Virus record (IMG/VR): IMGVR_UViG_3300020020_000112
Coordinates: 1 to 34,522 of that record
Origin: a virus
Direction: 5' to 3' (one strand)
Length of the DNA: 34,522 nucleotides
Under the pieces are notes generated by a model that was given only the letters and a program-made list of their open reading frames with translations, made no database searches and had not been told where the DNA came from. This document shows, in pieces, positions 9,919 to 32,253 of this stretch (the first letter of the stretch is position 1; each line of letters starts with the position of its first letter). The position numbers and the translations under genes are program-made.

Positions 9919-9920
9919 AG

Positions 9921-9993
9921 TGCGTTCGACGGGATTTGAACCCACAACAAAGAGATTAGAAGCCTCTTGCTCTATCCATTGAGCTACGAACGC
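9921..9993 (-). tRNA. tRNA-Arg (anticodon UCU)
   Basis: The minus strand folds as a complete 73-nt cloverleaf. The acceptor stem is GCGTTCG with CGAACGC; the D arm is GCTC/GAGC; the anticodon stem is AGAGG/TCTCT with loop CTTCTAA, giving anticodon TCT; the T arm is GTGGG/CCCGT with loop TTCAAAT. The two outer T-stem pairs are G-U wobbles. The discriminator is A and no CCA is encoded, so the host must add it. It reads AGA/AGG, codons frequent in this AT-leaning phage. It lies in a gap between two small genes and would be cut from their transcript. Confidence 0.93.
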
Positions 9994-14460: not shown

Positions 14461-16448
14461 TAGATGAGCTTCTTCAAATATTCGGCCCAATCGCCGGGAC
14501 GCAGCTTTTGATCTTCCATAACTCCCTTGATCTGATTGTCCTTCTTCTTAATGATCTCATCTAACCACTGGTCAACTGAGTTCATATTCTTCCAGTGATA
14601 AACTGTTACTGGTTCACTAGCTCCTTGCCGGAATACACGATCAGTACATTGGTCATTACGACCAGAGTTATACCAAAGGTCCAAGAAACCGACATAAGAA
14701 GCCCCGCCAGTCCACTGAGAGGGATTTTTCTGAAGATTAAGACCCTCGCCCATTGCTGAGTTGATACACAATACTCGTATCTTTCCTTGCTGGAAACCAA
14801 CTTCGAGATTAGCCAAGTTAGCACTATTCTCTCCAATCAGCAGTTCACAAGTAATATTCTGCTCCAAACAGCGACGTTGAATCTCTCTCATCGGCTCATT
14901 GAATGAACAGAAGATAACAATCGGCTCATCACCGATAGCTTCGATTGTATCCATTGCTTCATCAATTTTGCTAGACTCTCTAACATCTAGCCTATCAATC
15001 TGAACCAACAGTTTACCGTCATCAGTTGTTACTGGCATTCCCGTGAATGGATCAACTACAGACTTTTTGAAGTCGATAACCGGCCAAACATTCAATTGGC
15101 GCAAACGAATCAGCTGAGCTATAATAGCGGATGCAGTAAAGATCTTCTCTTGATCCTGGTCTGCCAACCACACGAAGAATTGATCTCGCATTTGTTCGTA
15201 GACTGCTGCTTGTGCTGGCAACATCTCGAGCAATACTTCTCGCTGTTCGTACGGTGTAACAGGAGGCATCTGTAATCCTACCTCATCTTTGCGACGCTTA
15301 CACATACGTCCAACTAGTGCATTATTCAAAAGCTTGTCGGCATCAACTACCAGTTGAAATTCTCCGGCAACACTCATCATTGAAGTAAACGCATTTTCGA
15401 ATTGCCGGGCAGACGGGAATCTTTCAGGATCAAAGATATGCAAATATGCCCACATTTCTGTCACTCTATTAACCATAGGTGTACCGGACATAAGAATCTG
15501 CATTTTTACATTGCGTGTTATATCGAATACAGACTTCCATACAGCTGTAGGTCCTGAGACATTAGCCCCACCTTTTAGCTTGTGGACTTCATCCATTACA
15601 ACGAAATCCCAATCAACATCCTGTAGGGCTTCAGTTGTACGGACAGTTTCGTAGTTAGTAATACAAGACATTCCGAACTCATCAATCATTTCGAAGAATG
15701 CCTCACGCTGAGCCTTATTCATTGATCCTTCTACCGGAATTAATTGAATACCGGGCGCCCACATTTTACCCTCACGAATAGTACCACCCGTCTTTAGAAT
15801 GGAAGTCTTAGTGAGCCAAAGAATACGTGGTTTGCGATCGTATTCAGCTTCGAATAAAGCGGATAGTACTGTGAGTGTATCGAATGTTTCCTTAGTCTTG
15901 CCGAGTCCCATATCGTTAGCGTTCAAGAAACCATTGAAACCAGAAAGATATGCGTGGATTGTTTGTACAACATCTTCCTTTTGATATTGGTGAGCTTTTG
16001 CCCATGAAGGATTGTTCTCCATAATCTTGAAGACTTTATCAGCTGTTTCATTGATAGCTTGATTCTTCAATGCATCACGAAGCATTTCCTCTTTACGACG
16101 TGCAAGAGCAAGCTTAGTATCTTTGTTGCGATTAATATCGCTCAACACTGAGCTACGTGTTTCATCTAACATACGAAGCTTATCTCGGAGGATACGCATT
16201 TCTTCAACTACTTGTGCGTACGTATCTTCCTCAGAGGCAAGTTCATAGTTAACATATGTCAGAGAATCTTCAATCTCTGGTAATGTCATTTCTGCGATAG
16301 TTTTTTCAGCTGTCCAGTTATGACCAATTGAATCAACTGCATCTTTCATGCCCATCTGTTCATTGATGATATCATTGATCGCATCAATTTCAGCATCACC
16401 AGATGGCTCATCAGGCTTAGGTTCAAAGTTTCCAAATGAAATAGTCAT
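14460..16448 (-). CDS. SNF2-family superfamily 2 helicase/translocase
   Basis: 662 aa. After an acidic start and a coiled-coil stretch (about 55-140), motif I is ANDMGLGKT (177-185), motif II VVMDEVHKL near 285, motif III MSGTPMVN near 325, and the second RecA lobe ends with AMGEGLNLQ and DQCTDRVFRQG (motifs V and VI). This is the order of SNF2/Rad54-like translocases, which strip or remodel protein-DNA complexes or branch-migrate DNA. The neighbours are small uncharacterised genes rather than the recombination module. A role in replication fork or recombination handling is inferred from the family. Confidence 0.93.
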   Translation of the reverse strand: MTISFGNFEPKPDEPSGDAEIDAINDIINEQMGMKDAVDSIGHNWTAEKTIAEMTLPEIEDSLTYVNYELASEEDTYAQVVEEMRILRDKLRMLDETRSSVLSDINRNKDTKLALARRKEEMLRDALKNQAINETADKVFKIMENNPSWAKAHQYQKEDVVQTIHAYLSGFNGFLNANDMGLGKTKETFDTLTVLSALFEAEYDRKPRILWLTKTSILKTGGTIREGKMWAPGIQLIPVEGSMNKAQREAFFEMIDEFGMSCITNYETVRTTEALQDVDWDFVVMDEVHKLKGGANVSGPTAVWKSVFDITRNVKMQILMSGTPMVNRVTEMWAYLHIFDPERFPSARQFENAFTSMMSVAGEFQLVVDADKLLNNALVGRMCKRRKDEVGLQMPPVTPYEQREVLLEMLPAQAAVYEQMRDQFFVWLADQDQEKIFTASAIIAQLIRLRQLNVWPVIDFKKSVVDPFTGMPVTTDDGKLLVQIDRLDVRESSKIDEAMDTIEAIGDEPIVIFCSFNEPMREIQRRCLEQNITCELLIGENSANLANLEVGFQQGKIRVLCINSAMGEGLNLQKNPSQWTGGASYVGFLDLWYNSGRNDQCTDRVFRQGASEPVTVYHWKNMNSVDQWLDEIIKKKDNQIKGVMEDQKLRPGDWAEYLKKLI

Positions 16449-18755: not shown

Positions 18756-18932
18756 TCAGTCAAGCACTTTCTTGGTATTATAGTGCTTTATTAGATGGCG
18801 TACATAGGTGCAAGCTCGATTGTAGTCTTGAAACGGAGCTACATAATTAATAGATGTTACTACTCCCGGTGGAACGTAGACAAACCAAATACGTCCATGT
18901 TTCTTGATGGTACATTTAGCTGAGTAGTTCAT
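18756..18932 (-). CDS. Small hypothetical protein (58 aa)
   Basis: ATG at 18932 is preferred over an in-frame TTG at 18944. It is basic with a hydrophobic strand core: MNYSAKCTIKKHGRIWFVYV, then PGVVTSINYVAPFQDYNRAC and a helical end YVRHLIKHYNTKK. This fits a small RNA- or DNA-binding alpha-beta fold. It overlaps the winged-helix gene by 17 bases and is probably cotranscribed with it. Confidence 0.6.
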   Translation of the reverse strand: MNYSAKCTIKKHGRIWFVYVPPGVVTSINYVAPFQDYNRACTYVRHLIKHYNTKKVLD

Positions 18933-19410
18933 AAGCCCTCTCAATCATTGCTTCAAAGGTTTTAAGTTCCATCTCGAGTTGCTCCCTATTAATGGGCTTC
19001 TTTTCATGAAATCCTGTATGCATATCGGAACCGTTATCCATAGCTAGTATGAGAGTTATGTTGATACTTAGTAGACCTAGTACCTCTCCGTATTTGCGAC
19101 GCAGATCAGTTATTCTTTCACGGAACAAATCGTCTTGACATGCATATGCATTGGTAATTTCGGTGACGTTAGTAAAGCTCGTTAAAAACCTATGAACGGG
19201 CCAAGAATCCTTAGTACGTTCACGAGTAGACCTAGTAGCTTTCAACTCACCTAGATGAGATTCCTCTATTGCTTTACTTGCTAATAGTTTACGGATATTT
19301 AGATACACAGTCTTAGGGTCGAGGTAGCTAAATTCTGCTAAAGCGTTCTTTCTTGTACAGCCGGGGTGGTCAATAATGTAGTCTAAAATAGGTTGCTCAT
19401 AAGATCGCAT
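18916..19410 (-). CDS. Winged-helix DNA-binding protein, candidate phage regulator
   Basis: 164 aa from ATG 19410. Residues 6-62 match a winged helix-turn-helix: helices PILDYIIDH, TRKNALAEF and DPKTVYLNIRKLL, then a wing-like turn and GELKATR. The rest is charged, with helical RERITDLRRKYGEVLGLL and EMELKTFEAMIERAYELL suited to dimerisation. The frame is open upstream to 19533, but that extension has no ribosome binding site and contains a promoter-like TTGACA (19444-19449). The mRNA may therefore begin very near the ATG, possibly leaderless, as in some phage repressors. It is the first gene of the long leftward series and a candidate lysogeny or early-gene regulator. Confidence 0.6.
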   Translation of the reverse strand: MRSYEQPILDYIIDHPGCTRKNALAEFSYLDPKTVYLNIRKLLASKAIEESHLGELKATRSTRERTKDSWPVHRFLTSFTNVTEITNAYACQDDLFRERITDLRRKYGEVLGLLSINITLILAMDNGSDMHTGFHEKKPINREQLEMELKTFEAMIERAYELLS

Positions 19411-19418
19411 AGGCCATC

Positions 19419-19449
19419 CATATACATAGATGAGGAGTATGGCTGTCAA
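19419..19449 (-). promoter_or_regulatory. Possible promoter of the winged-helix gene
   Basis: The minus strand has an exact TTGACA (19444-19449). The -10 is ambiguous: TATATG (19419-19424) at 19-base spacing or TGTATA (19421-19426) at 17. Either would start transcription within a few bases of the ATG at 19410. The exact -35 is the main support. Confidence 0.35.
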
Positions 19450-19620
19450 GTAAAATATGATAGCTGGCGGAAGTGCCGATCGGGTAGTGGTGGGGTATGG
19501 GCTGGGGATAGCTGGCAGGTATCGGATAGGCATAACTACATGGTATAGTCGGGGTGTGATACGGTAACGTACACTGTATAAAAGGCCAGCGTAAGGCTAC
19601 TGTCTCTAAAGTTAAAAATA

Positions 19621-19665
19621 GGGAAAGTAACTAGGTAGGATTCTATCCGTACCCTAGTACTTCCC
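19621..19665 (-). ncRNA. Long bulged hairpin with U-rich tail: regulatory RNA or terminator candidate
   Basis: The segment pairs GGGAA with TTCCC, GTA with TAC, CTAGG with CCTAG, TA with TA and GGAT with ATCC around a three-base loop, about 19 pairs interrupted only by single-base bulges. On the minus strand it is followed by TATTTTTAAC, like an intrinsic terminator. Since the upstream gene already has its own terminator (19896-19928), this second structure may end a short non-coding transcript or guard the regulator promoter. No RNA family recognised. Confidence 0.4.
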
Positions 19666-19765
19666 GCCCTCCTCTAATTTTACCGAGTCCCATAGTACCC
19701 ATACCTAAAAACACGATTTACCATTCAGAGGACTTAACCTCAGAAATAGTCTATACGTATATCTC

Positions 19766-19777
19766 CCCCTGTAGGGG
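19766..19777. repeat. Representative copy of the dispersed CCTGTAGG element (17 copies)
   Basis: Here the full 12-base form CCCCTGTAGGGG. The 8-base core, in either orientation, starts at 474, 1445, 3847, 5124, 8113, 10310, 11492, 13619, 15620, 19768, 20435, 21919, 22339, 26403, 27822, 28942 and 34162. Flanks favour a pyrimidine before and a purine after, making a palindrome with a non-palindromic GT centre. It lies in both genes and gaps and in both arms. Confidence 0.7.
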
Positions 19778-19895
19778 CCAACTTAATTACATATATGAAA
19801 ATGAAGATAGAGCAAAGAAATATATAAATTGAATAACTAATAACTAAATGTATATGTGTTGGTACTAATTATGCGACGGACCTAAACGAACCCAT

Positions 19896-19928
19896 AAAAA
19901 TAGCCCCCAGATATTATCCAGGGGCTAT
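19896..19928 (-). terminator. Intrinsic terminator after the 110-aa paralogue
   Basis: On the minus strand ATAGCCCC pairs with GGGGCTAT (19900-19907 with 19921-19928) around a 13-base loop and is followed by TTTTAT. It begins 26 bases after the stop at 19955 and closes that gene as a separate transcription unit. Confidence 0.8.
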
Positions 19929-19954
19929 TAATATATTCCGGATCCGCTTATTAT

Positions 19955-20287
19955 TTACTCATCCAACAATGAATCCAACTCGCCCATTTCCAATTCAGCG
20001 AGCAAATCATCATCATTGGATTCTTTCTTGCTACGTGGCTTGCGGAAATAAGAAACATTAGTGAGGTGATCCTCACCATGAATTTTCCGCAGGTTTTGCA
20101 ATTCCTTATCATACATTTTGTATGCTGAGGCTAGAACCTTACGGAACTTATCGAGAGTTTCTTTGCGAGAAACAATTTCCTCATCCGTGAGTTTCCAGAT
20201 AGAACCTGAAACCAATTCGTTCAGGTACTTATCCTCAATTACGATCTGTAGAGTAGATCGCTTAATAGGCTTTGCTTTTACAGCCAT
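19955..20287 (-). CDS. Acidic-tailed protein, paralogue of 20565-20963 (110 aa)
   Basis: About 70 residues are clearly similar to the neighbouring 132-aa protein: LVSGSIW, then a helical section, then RKIHGEDHL and a closing YFRKPR. Here they are followed by a shorter acidic tail (DDDLLAELEMGELDSLLDE). The N-terminus is short and basic (MAVKAKPIKRST). The fold is predicted by eye as strand-helix-helix. A good promoter (20372-20401) and its own terminator make it monocistronic, a sign of strong or separately timed expression. Function unknown; a small basic core with an acidic tail could be a DNA mimic, ssDNA-binding accessory or polymerase-binding factor. Confidence 0.8.
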   Translation of the reverse strand: MAVKAKPIKRSTLQIVIEDKYLNELVSGSIWKLTDEEIVSRKETLDKFRKVLASAYKMYDKELQNLRKIHGEDHLTNVSYFRKPRSKKESNDDDLLAELEMGELDSLLDE

Positions 20288-20371
20288 TATTTCCTACCTT
20301 TCAAGTTGATAATCGGATATACCCTGAAAGGCGGGTCCGGAATAAATCTTCAGTTTTCAAGGTACGTATTT

Positions 20372-20401
20372 AATCTATCACACTCGAGGTATTATTGTCA
20401 A
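20372..20401 (-). promoter_or_regulatory. Leftward promoter of the 110-aa paralogue
   Basis: Exact TTGACA (20396-20401) and TAGATT (20372-20377) with 18-base spacing; TAGATT fits the TAnnnT form common in actinobacterial promoters. Transcription would start near 20365 and give a leader of about 77 bases. A CCTGTAGG element (20435-20442) lies about 35 bases upstream of the -35. Confidence 0.65.
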
Positions 20402-20521
20402 ATCATCAAGAGAAATGGATTTCATTAATTCAATCCTGTAGGGGTTATTATTTAATAGACGGATGATATAACTAAGTTATTATCGGTACTAGTAATGCGA
20501 CTGTGAGGAACGAACAAAACT

Positions 20522-20550
20522 AAAAGAGGGCAGGATTTCTCCTGCCCTCT
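20522..20550 (-). terminator. Intrinsic terminator after the 132-aa paralogue
   Basis: A perfect 11-bp stem (AGAGGGCAGGA with TCCTGCCCTCT) and a four-base TTTC loop, followed on the minus strand by TTTTAGTTTTG. It starts 14 bases after the stop at 20565. It is one of the clearest terminators in the window. Confidence 0.88.
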
Positions 20551-20564
20551 CTCAGCATTCAACT

Positions 20565-20963
20565 TCACTCCGAGGTTTCGTCATCCTCCTCATCCTCATC
20601 TTCTCCGAAGGACAAGTCATCCATCAAAGAAGTGTCAACGCCATCCTTCGGTGTCCGAGGCTTGCGGAAGAAGTTGACTTCCTTCAAATGGTCGTCACCG
20701 TGAATCTTCCGCTGATTCTTCAGTTCCTCATCGAACATCTTGAGAGAAGCCTTTACGGTCTTCATAAACTTCTCAAGAGTATTCCGAACCGAAATGATCT
20801 GGTCGGTATCTTGTGTCCAGATCGAACCGCTGACAAGTTGCTGAAGCATCTTGTCGTCGATGACTGTTTGGACGACACCTTTCTTCTTCTTGACTTGCAC
20901 CGTTGCGGACTCCTTGTCAATGAAGTCCGCAACTGGACCGATAATCTTTGGCGTGTTTGCCAT
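20565..20963 (-). CDS. Acidic-tailed protein, paralogue of 19955-20287 (132 aa)
   Basis: Shares the LVSGSIW...RKIHGDDHL...FFRKPR core with the next gene, but has a longer basic N-terminus (VQVKKKKGVVQ) and a longer acidic tail (FGEDEDEEDDETSE). GAAAGG precedes the ATG. GC content over five counted lines is about 48%, against about 41% for its paralogue, so the copies have diverged or one was acquired separately. It lies between the 83-aa gene and a strong terminator. Function unknown. Confidence 0.8.
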   Translation of the reverse strand: MANTPKIIGPVADFIDKESATVQVKKKKGVVQTVIDDKMLQQLVSGSIWTQDTDQIISVRNTLEKFMKTVKASLKMFDEELKNQRKIHGDDHLKEVNFFRKPRTPKDGVDTSLMDDLSFGEDEDEEDDETSE

Positions 20964-21019: not shown

Positions 21020-21271
21020 TTAGATCGGAAGATACTCGTCGAATGTCGACTTGTAGAAGTCCCTCAGTGTGTGACGCTGAGAATATGACAACTTGCTCAA
21101 GTAATCGACGGTAACCGAAATGTTGTTGAACTCGTACCGTGTCATTCGTGCCAGTTTGGCGCATGCGAGGAACATTTCCTCATCAAAGTTGGCATGCTGC
21201 GCCAACTGGACAACTGGCCAAGTCATGTAGTCCATGACCTGAAGTTCCTGATTCTCTCTTTCGATTCTCAT
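21020..21271 (-). CDS. Hypothetical protein (83 aa), first leftward gene
   Basis: ATG at 21271 with GAAAGG upstream; the open frame to 21310 has no such site. Mostly helical: MRIERENQELQVMDYM, then WPVVQLAQHANFDEEMF and a C-terminal LSYSQRHTLRDFYKSTF. It is the first gene transcribed leftward from the divergent control region and so an immediate-early gene by position. GC is about 50%, higher than most of the window. No family recognised. Confidence 0.7.
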   Translation of the reverse strand: MRIERENQELQVMDYMTWPVVQLAQHANFDEEMFLACAKLARMTRYEFNNISVTVDYLSKLSYSQRHTLRDFYKSTFDEYLPI

Positions 21272-21362
21272 TTCTACCCTTTCTTTGTCGGTTCTTTGGT
21301 ACAAGGTCAATATACACCCGACCCCTTATTATGACAATAGTTATAACCTAGTAATATAGGGA

Positions 21363-21484: not shown

Positions 21485-21502
21485 TGTTAGGCGACCCTAA
21501 CA
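21485..21502 (+). promoter_or_regulatory. Inverted repeat at the rightward start point
   Basis: TGTTAGG, CGAC, CCTAACA: a perfect seven-base inverted repeat with a four-base centre, covering the predicted start of the rightward promoter. A related half (TGTTAACCGACCC) follows about 20 bases later. It could be an operator or a leader hairpin. Confidence 0.45.
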
Positions 21503-26923: not shown

Positions 26924-28886
26924 ATTTGATGCTGCAAAATCTCAGCGGCAACCATTCGAAAAAGAATGGTACAACAATTTAGCTATGTTCTTCGGTAAGC
27001 ACTACATGCAATGGTCTGGTTCTGCAACTACTGGATTCTCTATGAATCAGCCAAAAGTGGCTGCATGGAGAGTTAGACTGGTAGCTAACCGTGTTAAGAC
27101 TATTGTTCGCAAAGAGAACTCAAAAGTCAATAAGGAACGTGGGATTTGGTATGTAGTTCCTCAAACTCCAGATGATGAGGACTTGGCAAAAGCCAGAATG
27201 GCGACGGCTATTACCGATCAACTTCTTGACTCAAAGAATTTCCAGCTTAGAAAACGGGAAGCTATTTGGTGGAGAGGTGTTTGTGGCACAGGATTCATGA
27301 AAACGTACTTCGATCCAAAGAAGGACATTTCATATCTTGCACCCTCTACTTTCCATATGTGGTTTCCTAATCTTGAGGAACAGGACATTCAAGAACAAGA
27401 TTGGTGTTGCCACGGAATTGCTACAACTGTTGAAGCTGTTAAAGCATTGTATGGTGTTGATGTAGACCCCGATTCTAATGCGGATATTCCTGAGTCTAAG
27501 TTCAGACTTAGCTTGGGTCTTGCTAAGAAGGGTGATGCAAAAGATCACGTATTTCTTAAGGAATTCTGGGTCAAGTCATGTCCTTCATTCCCTGATGGCG
27601 CAATGTTTGTTATTTCAAATTCTGAACTTATATTTATGGCTGAGAAGCCTCCTGAAATGCAGTTGGGACCGGATGGTAAACCAGTAATAGATCAGGCAAC
27701 AGGACAACCTGCACTAGTTGCTAAGACTTTTAAACCTAGTAATATTCTAGGTGGAGACGCTCCTGAATCCGCATTCCCCTATGAACACGGTAAGTATCCT
27801 TTTGCTAAAGTAGATCATATCCCTACAGGTAGGTTCTATGCAGAATCTGTCATTAAGGACTTGATTCCTATTCAAAAGGAATACAATAGATCACGTTCTC
27901 AAGGAATTGAAGCTAGAAATCTAACTGGTAAGCCTCAATGGGCAGTACCTAAAGGTTCTGTAGACGTTAAGAAACTTTCTGCACAACCTGGATTGGTTAT
28001 TGAATTCACCCCCGGTTTTGATGCTCCTGCACCTGTAAGAAATCCTGAACTTCCTTCATACCACTTTAATTTGGAACAAGCCTCTTTGCAGGATATGGAT
28101 TACATCAGTAATCAATATGAAGTTAGTCAGGGTAGAACACCACCAGGAGTAGAGGCAGCTTCTGCTATTGCTTACTTGCAAGAAGAAAATGATAGTATCT
28201 TGGAAGAAACTATTGCCTCAATGGAGGAAATGGTTCAATCTGTGGGCTATCAGTCTGTCATGTTAGCTAAGCAATTCTGGGATGAACAGAAAATGGTCCA
28301 GATTATTTCTGGCGATCAAGTTTATGAGGTAATGCAATTCAAGCAGAATTCATTGCCAGATCAAGTAGACTTTAAAGTCGAACACGGTTCAATGGCCCCT
28401 CGTTCAAGAGCGGCCAAGCAAGCATTTATTATTGATTTGATTGATAAGCAATTGATTCCTCCAATGGAGGGTTTGAAATATCTTGAAATGTCTGAAGTGT
28501 CTCGTTTGTATGCAGAACTTGCAATTGATACTCGTCAAGCAGAGCGAGAAAACTTTAAGATGAAGAAAGTGCAGCCTGAAACTGCTGCACCACCTTTGGA
28601 CGGAATGGGTGCAGTTACTGGTCAAACTCCGGAACCTGCTCCCCTCCAAAATCCTGTGATGGTAAATACTTTTGACAACCATCAAGCACACATTTACGTC
28701 CATGGTAAATTCATGAAGTCGCAATCCTATGAACAATTGGATCCGATGGTTCAACAATTGTTCTTGGCCCACTATAACGAACATCTAATGACTTACGGAA
28801 AGCAGATAACTGATGCCGGAGGAACAGAGAACGGAAACGGAGACTCGTCTGGAGGCGCTCCAACTGAATCTGGGCAACCAACCTGA
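26865..28886 (+). CDS. Portal protein (P22-like)
   Basis: 673 aa. The N-terminus (FEKEWYNNLAMFFGKHYMQW), the segment NRVKTIVRKENSKVNKERG followed by VVPQTPDDEDLAKAR, and later IPTGRFYAESVIKDLIPIQKEYN and QYEVSQGRTPPGVEAASAIA match the pattern of long podovirus-type portals. The last class of motif (GxxPxGVxSAxAI) is typical of the portal stem/crown. The ring docks on the procapsid vertex and passes DNA. The C-terminal 60 residues are Gly/Asn/Ser-rich and overlap the scaffold gene by 74 bases. Start supported by GGGG upstream. Confidence 0.88.
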   Translation: MANSISSTPDQKLVEEYLAKFDAAKSQRQPFEKEWYNNLAMFFGKHYMQWSGSATTGFSMNQPKVAAWRVRLVANRVKTIVRKENSKVNKERGIWYVVPQTPDDEDLAKARMATAITDQLLDSKNFQLRKREAIWWRGVCGTGFMKTYFDPKKDISYLAPSTFHMWFPNLEEQDIQEQDWCCHGIATTVEAVKALYGVDVDPDSNADIPESKFRLSLGLAKKGDAKDHVFLKEFWVKSCPSFPDGAMFVISNSELIFMAEKPPEMQLGPDGKPVIDQATGQPALVAKTFKPSNILGGDAPESAFPYEHGKYPFAKVDHIPTGRFYAESVIKDLIPIQKEYNRSRSQGIEARNLTGKPQWAVPKGSVDVKKLSAQPGLVIEFTPGFDAPAPVRNPELPSYHFNLEQASLQDMDYISNQYEVSQGRTPPGVEAASAIAYLQEENDSILEETIASMEEMVQSVGYQSVMLAKQFWDEQKMVQIISGDQVYEVMQFKQNSLPDQVDFKVEHGSMAPRSRAAKQAFIIDLIDKQLIPPMEGLKYLEMSEVSRLYAELAIDTRQAERENFKMKKVQPETAAPPLDGMGAVTGQTPEPAPLQNPVMVNTFDNHQAHIYVHGKFMKSQSYEQLDPMVQQLFLAHYNEHLMTYGKQITDAGGTENGNGDSSGGAPTESGQPT

Positions 28887-31755: not shown

Positions 31756-32253
31756 ATGGCTGGTGGCGTATTTGTTCCTGGAGGTAGCGGCGGGCCACAT
31801 ACTCACATTAAATCAGAAGTAACTGATTTTTCGCATGACCATGTAAAGGCTCATGTAACCGACTTTCCGCATAATCATGTAAAAGCAGATGTAACAGATT
31901 TTGCTCATACTCATCCTAAAGCTGAGATAAGCGATTTTGCTCACGCACACGTAAAAGCGGACGTAAGCGATTTCGCTCATAATCATATAAAATCTGAAAT
32001 AACTGATTTCGCACATACTCATGTTAAAGCCGATACTACTGATTTTGCACACACCCATCCTTCTTCAGATGTTACTGATTTAACAGAAATTGTGCAAGAT
32101 ATGCTTAGCACCTTTCTCGTTGAAGGTACTGATATTGATCTTGTTTATAGTGATGTTGGAAATACGTTAACAATTAATTCTACAGCTTCTGGTGGTGGAG
32201 GCTCGGGACTAACTGAAGCACAAGTTAGAACAAGGAGCTTTATAAAGTGTTAA
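31756..32253 (+). CDS. Fibre protein with eight HxH repeats (165 aa)
   Basis: After a glycine-rich start, residues 15-110 consist of eight 12-residue units of the form HxHxKx-D/E-V/I-T/S-DF. Each begins with His-x-His, and this is followed by a beta/turn domain (IVQDMLSTFLVEGTDIDL) and a Gly-rich tail. In T4 gp37 and related needle fibres, HxH motifs from three chains bind iron along a trimeric shaft; the same is likely here. It overlaps the next gene, which starts with GTG at 32247. A short spike or fibre shaft is the best guess. Confidence 0.75.
   Translation: MAGGVFVPGGSGGPHTHIKSEVTDFSHDHVKAHVTDFPHNHVKADVTDFAHTHPKAEISDFAHAHVKADVSDFAHNHIKSEITDFAHTHVKADTTDFAHTHPSSDVTDLTEIVQDMLSTFLVEGTDIDLVYSDVGNTLTINSTASGGGGSGLTEAQVRTRSFIKC
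31798..32085 (+). repeat. Eight tandem 36-bp coding repeats
   Basis: Encodes residues 15-110 of the fibre protein, phase-locked at 12 codons. Units share CAT/CAC-x-CAT and GATTT(C) words with synonymous differences, so they are old repeats under protein-level selection rather than a recent slippage product. The last unit is degenerate (HTHPSSDVTDLT). Confidence 0.9.

Follow-up and report, generated by a model that had tools for sequence, protein, structure and literature searches.

A recurrently doubled, unclassified phage gene pair whose second copy may form a boxA-led, closed-loop expression unit

Two neighbouring minus-strand genes of a phage, which we call copy A and copy B, belong to an uncharacterised family that recurs as a tandem pair in distant relatives. 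In our preferred reading, to which we give a probability of roughly 0.37, copy B is a high-output unit with a boxA-like leader and a closed-loop mRNA, the product of which would be needed in bulk early in infection, acting on nucleic acid or on the transcription machinery. The strongest new result behind this reading, obtained by sequence analysis, is a layout of predicted leader and trailer elements that, in distant relatives too, accompanies copy B only; it is weakest in the window itself and where arm and string overlap in some loci.

The DNA studied, IMG/VR virus record IMGVR_UViG_3300020020_000112, was analysed at its full length of 34,522 bases (hereafter the window). Left of ~21.3 kb the genes run leftward and encode a helicase, exonucleases, a Sak4-type protein, a primase-helicase and a DNA polymerase, and right of ~21.3 kb they run rightward and encode terminase, portal and capsid. 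Because of its gene content, the leftward block is presumably the early one. Copies A and B lie near its head, and this promoter-proximal place, proposed in an earlier sequence-only reading of the same DNA, is kept in relatives. The capsid protein is 54% identical to the capsid of the uncultured phage record MW202795 and ~35% identical to those of Microbacterium phage Shocker and the Jasmine-group Arthrobacter phages, and the phage is a distant relative of the Arthrobacter podovirus Jasmine. Elsewhere, the window holds a tRNA-Arg (TCT) gene on the minus strand (9920-9993), the only element that an Rfam search of the window returned, and a 36-nt tandem repeat array (31798-32059, with repeats such as HVKADVTDFAHNH) within a 165-aa ORF (31756-32253) that perhaps encodes a tail protein. 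The non-coding stretch after copy B is a possible origin or RNA gene; its blocks collinear with the relative G001 are AGTTACTTTCC, CCTTACGCTGG[CT]CTTTTATACAGTG and GATACCTGCCAGCTATCC, and the stretch has no Rfam match.

Table 1. Features of the copy A/copy B locus in the window.
Feature	Position	Strand	Basis or remark
96-aa ORF upstream of copy A, probably in copy A's unit	21020..21310	(-)	likely true start ATG 21271; 45.7% identical gene before copy A in G003 (L034)
Candidate promoter of 96-aa/copy A unit, TTGTCA-17-TATATT	21309..21337	(-)	promoter scan
Copy A, 132-aa protein with basic helical core and acidic tail	20565..20963	(-)	
Intrinsic terminator of copy A unit	20519..20556	(-)	scan; fold -33.1 kcal/mol
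Post-terminator motif GTCGCATTACTAGTAC	20486..20501	(-)	
Copy B promoter, TTGACA-18-TAGATT, extended -10 (TG before -10)	20372..20401	(-)	conservation
boxA-like leader string CGTACCTTGAAAACTGAAGA	20347..20366	(-)	
5' arm of predicted leader-trailer helix	20331..20347	(-)	
Copy B, 110-aa paralog of copy A	19955..20287	(-)	
3' arm of predicted leader-trailer helix	19931..19947	(-)	between stop codon and terminator
Copy B terminator hairpin	19894..19934	(-)	fold -28.0 kcal/mol; omitted by terminator scan
Post-terminator motif GTCGCATAATTAGTAC	19862..19877	(-)	
~540-nt non-coding stretch after copy B	19411..19954	(-)	blocks collinear with G001
Next gene, possible winged-helix protein	18916..19410	(-)	relatives after the locus in G001 and G007; family match weak

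Both ORFs are present as the sequence-only reading described them, including the shared LVSGSIW, RKIHG[ED]DHL and FRKPR segments, and they are true paralogs, since BLASTP aligns them with 43 of 86 residues identical (50%) at E = 7e-32, a value at which likeness means homology. Each protein combines a basic core (pI 9.65 and 9.56) with the acidic tail noted before, for which we compute charges of -8 in copy B and -13 in copy A. Structure prediction of each protein alone, a check proposed at the time, gave helical models for both, with one long helix spanning residues 35-70 of copy B and 53-87 of copy A; the models are poor, with a mean pLDDT of 67 (copy B) and 60.

The earlier reading knew of no family for the pair, and in searches of Pfam and PHROGs nothing passed the threshold for a match (the curated cut-off for Pfam, E <= 1e-3 for PHROGs). 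The best Pfam match was vATP-synt_E to copy A (E 0.00094, 19.1 bits, below its 24.2-bit cut-off), the best PHROG match had an E of 0.021, and a sequence search of solved structures in the PDB gave 0.25 at best. Foldseek returned no match with E <= 0.001 from the PDB or BFVD, the best in BFVD (E 0.45) being uncharacterised proteins of Caulobacter phages. With VIA-align the helical matches were weak, and the exonuclease VII small subunit (XseB) topped the list for the copy B model only. This likeness is a weak one between helical hairpins (Z 4.7, rmsd 2.5, 60 residues aligned, model pLDDT 67), and a Z of 4.7 is common for helical bundles. The XseB Pfam profile (PF02609) matched in none of five of these phage records, whereas of 14 control genomes 13 had a match in that search and 9 had one over the cut-off.

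Members of the family were found by profile rather than by single sequence. Against 50,697 phage records, tblastn matched copy B nowhere, copy A once and weakly (E 0.3), and none of three other members; with the MW202795 protein discussed below it matched that protein only. Viral contigs scanned with the two proteins and their pair alignment yielded none, later profiles found three loci each in viral contigs, and the genome contigs scanned held no family member. The profile search built from both copies, which the earlier reading had suggested, found members in 3 of the 22 records searched, with one copy in G001, two in G007 and a locus truncated at the contig end in G003, and a scan added one more contig with two copies, L037. 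Further loci were taken with a terminase profile (best 80 of 217). In an hmmsearch of 13,635 ORFs from 102 fetched loci, using a profile that included the MW202795 candidate, L065 showed two copies (E 4e-5 and 1e-4). Sub-threshold candidates in L061 (two) and L019, with E of 5.7, 8.8 and 0.66, were then added by hand for their slot and strand; a plus-strand ORF in L092 that scored better than the hand-added candidates (E 0.25) was not taken. With them in the profile, a copy in L062 and a second copy in L019 appeared, which brought L061 and L019 to two copies each and L062 to one. When profiles were compared without the MW202795 candidate, the window group matched L065 at a single-comparison E of 3.1e-6 and L065 matched L061/L019/L062 at 9.9e-7; the window group compared directly with L061/L019/L062 gave 0.071, so that this link is transitive through L065. 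The candidate itself (MW202795, ctEqG8, 34888-35199) fits by place and tail, but was rejected as a member, its profile comparison not being significant (E 0.05) and its high hmmsearch score being circular because it was in the profile. We used it solely as a single-copy control and left it out of the nine-record count.

Six of the nine records with the family carry two tandem copies (the window, G007 and the contigs of L037, L065, L061 and L019), two carry a single copy (G001 and L062, the latter on a contig that stops 1.4 kb further on) and one, G003, is cut. In all six, the tandem copies share a slot near the head of the leftward operon, and within a locus they are about 48-59% identical. 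A check of 50 loci for minus-strand paralogs upstream of terminase or structural genes, with an upstream limit that was a rough guess for six, gave family pairs in L061, L065, L054 (G007), L055 (the L037 contig) and L019; the absence of pairs in the other loci says little, because many of them are short or distant. Low-scoring pairs in L072 and an overlapping frame in L019 proved not to be family members.

In a tree of 15 proteins, the A and B labels form no two clades: none of 200 bootstrap trees (0%) can be explained by a single label change, and the well-supported branches require no fewer than 4. Support for the L061 pair as a clade is 96/94.9, and the tree does not resolve the other pairs tested. 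An ancient A/B orthology finds no support here, and since the labels are unsorted, doubling or homogenisation of the copies happened more than once; the tree is compatible both with recurrent duplication and with gene conversion. The finding of two copies in six records is an argument that dose or separate control is important. The A/B pair is real, recurrent and unclassified, and no local accident.

One reading of these proteins is that the product is a nucleoid-associated or silencing protein working like Lsr2 or H-NS, with a helical dimerisation part and a basic hook, and that it is produced in large amounts on entry so as to coat phage or host DNA. Such a role is compatible with our preferred reading, and the odds of the two overlap, but taken for itself we consider it rather doubtful. 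It would account for the basic core and for the GRP/GRK-type motifs in the MW202795 candidate and L061, and the same slot in Jasmine holds an Lsr2-like gene that is present twice. Position alone, however, is not homology, the hook is not conserved, being missing in L019, and no Lsr2 or H-NS profile of Pfam or PHROGs was listed at E <= 1 for copy A, copy B or seven distant members. An AT-hook reading of the copies was likewise dropped, because L019 has no such motif.

The claim that the two genes form separate transcription units stood for copy B, which looks like a stand-alone unit under separate control, and not fully for copy A. Copy A starts 56 nt after the 96-aa ORF, which has a candidate promoter, and is therefore probably not alone in its unit, but expressed together with this upstream gene. 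The strong terminators ascribed to both copies are present as hairpins (Table 1). A good promoter had also been ascribed to the 110-aa gene, and it is credible by conservation rather than by scan, the scan alone giving 8 sites against 10.4 in shuffles. G007 and L037 have a promoter of this type in the corresponding position, and shuffled A-B gaps of the window, G007 and L037 produced one in 0, 1 and 0 of 1000 cases, with a pattern that was written after the sites had been seen and that was applied to these three loci.

The A-B gap holds a terminator, the motif GTCGCATTACTAGTAC and an extended -10 promoter, with 100, 95 and 91 nt from the start of the motif to the -35 and 84, 110 and 104 nt from the end of the -10 to the start codon of copy B (window, G007 and L037, respectively). 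The motif, GTCGCA(A/T)T(A/T) or GTCGCATAA, follows the copies close behind terminators or terminator-like hairpins, as judged by eye in the relatives, and is found twice each in the window, G007, L037, L061 and L019, once in G001 and three times in L065. A looser form also occurs elsewhere (window 2, G001 5, G007 4, L065 2), and the strict form, at 2 in the window against a shuffle mean of 0.48 and maximum of 2, is only modestly enriched, so the claim rests on the place of the motif and not on its count.

Other repeated elements were seen around the locus and beyond it. An operator-like TTA[AG]GNNN(N)GCCTAAC occurs once each in the divergent control region of the window (21485-21500) and of G001, with a TTAAGCATGCCTAAC form in G007. 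A hairpin, TGAG[CT]A-N11-TGCTCA, is kept between genes in relatives of the locus (L034 2294, L035 5367, L036 3442 and 4389, L037 4942), and was not found in the window. The most over-represented 8-mer, CCTACAGG, is present 17 times in the window (0.64 expected), 23 times in G001 (0.84), 29 times in G007 (0.82) and 28 times in MW202795 (0.96), in coding and non-coding DNA, on both strands and in all frames (in the window for example at 20435-20442, 19768-19775, 15620-15627 and 27822-27829). As a motif local to the A/B locus it was rejected, being genome-wide. Its one-mismatch variants are mostly rare in the window, the commonest being CATACAGG with 7; Jasmine (2) and Shocker (1) show no enrichment of it and have 8-mers of their own, TCCCACAG at 23 (1.18 expected) and CCTTTACAGG at 23. 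Judged by their sequence distribution, repeats of this type look like a dispersed system of binding or recombination sites.

Inverted repeats around copy B emerged unasked, with 17-nt arms at 88% in the window and 18 nt at 94% in G007, and their complementary arms are predicted to pair the leader with the trailer. We computed duplex energies for fixed flanks of 110 nt before the start and 45 nt after the stop, with 1000 shuffles of each side. For copy B of G007 (-31.6 kcal/mol), L061 (-44.0) and L019 (-48.9), no trailer shuffle and no leader shuffle was as low, followed by L037 (-33.0; 14 trailer and 22 leader shuffles) and the window (-23.4; 85 and 53), the weakest of the five. Copy B of L065 has no helix (298 and 316 of 1000) and no boxA-like string. 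Neither copies A (0 of 6; 150 to 983 shuffles of 1000 as low) nor single copies (0 of 3; 91 to 541) stand out. The predicted helix is thereby present in 5 of 6 copies B against 0 of 9 others (Fisher p = 0.002), or, if only loci without any equally low shuffle are counted, in 3 of 6 against 0 of 9 (0.044, calculated by hand).

With tight, UTR-limited flanks, chosen after the inverted repeat had been seen, 1 of 500 and 0 of 500 shuffles were as low in the window and none on either side in G007, and copy B of L037 (19/500; 24/500) did no better than copy A of G007 (28/500; 12/500). Of the six trailers, its own is the best partner for each of the five leaders, with L061 and L019 also cross-pairing (-31.1, -26.1). 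Compared with ATG ORFs of at least 60 aa in the locus as fetched, the helix ranks lowest among 33 in L061, among 29 in L036/G007 and among 11 in L037, and in L019 it lies below all 28. Among the window's own ATG ORFs, 7 of 83 (itself included) are as low or lower, and of the other 54 listed genes 4 are lower.

The five leaders predicted to close into a loop all (5/5) carry a boxA-like string. The pattern TTG[ATG][AC]AA[CT]T[GA]AAGA, derived from these five sites, occurs once in each of five records or pieces (window, G007, L037, L061 and L019), before copy B only, and in 0 of 6 others; the single copy of G001 has neither the string nor the helix. An 18-mer of the window string, TACCTTGAAAACTGAAGA, has 12 exact matches in bacterial genomes, a number close to the ~7 estimated by chance for 257 Gb. 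One of the 12, in Geomicrobium halophilum, lies ~60 nt before a 23S gene, at the place of the pre-23S boxA, and the other 11 had no rRNA in the piece fetched (Rfam). A second boxA set is described before 23S in pre-rRNA (PMC10250234). The strings meet the gamma-proteobacterial consensus GYTCTTTAANA (PMC5725501) only loosely; we infer that they correspond to the boxA of the host.

In L019, and in one of two pairings of L037, the arm overlaps the string, so that pairing and Nus binding would compete and the string could be conserved as part of a stem. This overlap favours the view that the pair is nothing special: accessory genes, duplicated and drifting, under commonplace promoters and terminators, whose arms form no more than a stem that stabilises the mRNA, with the string a piece of that stem and not a boxA. 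The single-copy relatives G001 and L062 point the same way, as does the window helix, unremarkable among the window's own genes. We hold this view to be unlikely on balance, although a serious competitor; the recurrent two-copy state and the features confined to copy B in distant relatives speak against it.

It is also conceivable, though very improbable in our view, that the copy B transcript matters more as RNA than through its protein, serving as a boxA decoy by which NusB/S10 would be titrated away and host rRNA synthesis reduced. The string and the rRNA-like layout in 5 of 6 two-copy loci would suit a decoy, but every copy seen has an intact reading frame, a leader-trailer helix is not needed for decoy action, and a single boxA per transcript would be inefficient.

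In lambda, the corresponding layout is nutL-N-tL1. The place of the pair near the operon head, the boxA-like string before copy B, the small basic-core protein and the strong terminator directly 3' would all fit a product that acts like lambda N, that is, an antiterminator working through the boxA-like site in its own leader and letting polymerase pass the copy B terminator into the rest of the leftward operon (for the roles of N, boxA and NusB, see PMC10250234). We regard this as improbable. By alignment, the window, G001 and G007 have similar TTGAC-containing stretches ahead of the next gene, so that this gene may have its own promoter; the single copy of G001 lacks any match to the string, and no N-type PHROG is among the matches listed.

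The reading that we prefer, copy B as a high-output unit, would work as follows. Copy A and the 96-aa gene upstream of it would be expressed together, and copy B would be read from its own near-consensus promoter, with host RNA polymerase starting just after 20401-20372. The polymerase would take up Nus factors at the boxA-like string, and leader and trailer would come together before the strong terminator, as on pre-16S rRNA, giving a short, stable and abundant closed-loop mRNA. Its product, with a helical basic core, a basic FRKPR hinge and an acidic tail, would be needed in bulk early. Its place in the operon, its basic core and its acidic tail favour an action on nucleic acid or the transcription machinery. 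The earlier idea of an important early product, such as a host-polymerase modifier or DNA-binding factor, finds partial support in the true paralogy, the separate control, the place kept in relatives and the lack of a family match.

A more specific proposal is that of a phage mRNA built on the pre-rRNA plan, with boxA-directed Nus antitermination and a leader-trailer helix that closes the mRNA into a loop, used for the second of two tandem copies of a takeover protein needed early and in bulk. Compensating sequence changes would have preserved this plan in a group of uncultivated phages. We put this forward tentatively, as an unlikely but worthwhile possibility; a narrow search of the literature on boxA/NusB and phage mRNA turned up no phage mRNA of such build. 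If it is true, phages boost one mRNA by rRNA-type antitermination and leader-trailer folding, the roles of boxA and helix are separable from ribosome assembly, and the locus offers a high-expression cassette as well as a family of small proteins, so far undescribed, that could be tested for a part in host takeover. Should the rRNA parallel fail, the repeated tandem doubling in a single slot would still indicate selection on dose or separate control.

Besides XseB, three known systems invite comparison. The Lsr2-like gene of Jasmine (gp1/gp58; PMC5513430), a distantly related podovirus, occupies the same slot and lies within a 1,330-bp terminal repeat, and is therefore present in two doses per genome. 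It differs in having no match to our family profiles and in being doubled by the terminal repeat rather than as tandem paralogs; the likeness is a parallel of position, not homology. The suhB mRNA of Enterobacteriaceae likewise has a boxA in the 5' UTR of a protein-coding mRNA (PMC5725501); there it represses, which means that a boost by the boxA-like string of copy B is not a given, and a leader-trailer helix is not known to be part of it. E. coli rrn pre-16S rRNA differs from copy B in its dimensions. The body of copy B is a short mRNA and the longest perfect runs of its helix are 9-17 bp, whereas >17 bp are reported to be needed for 30S formation, and the predicted arm directly follows or overlaps the string, whereas 18-19 nt separate boxA and boxC in pre-16S (PMC10250234). 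The order of elements is nevertheless alike. On pre-16S rRNA, NusB holds boxA while the next leader arm awaits the trailer (PMC10250234), and copy B presents the same succession of a boxA-like string near the transcript start and then an arm predicted to pair with a trailer arm after the RNA body.
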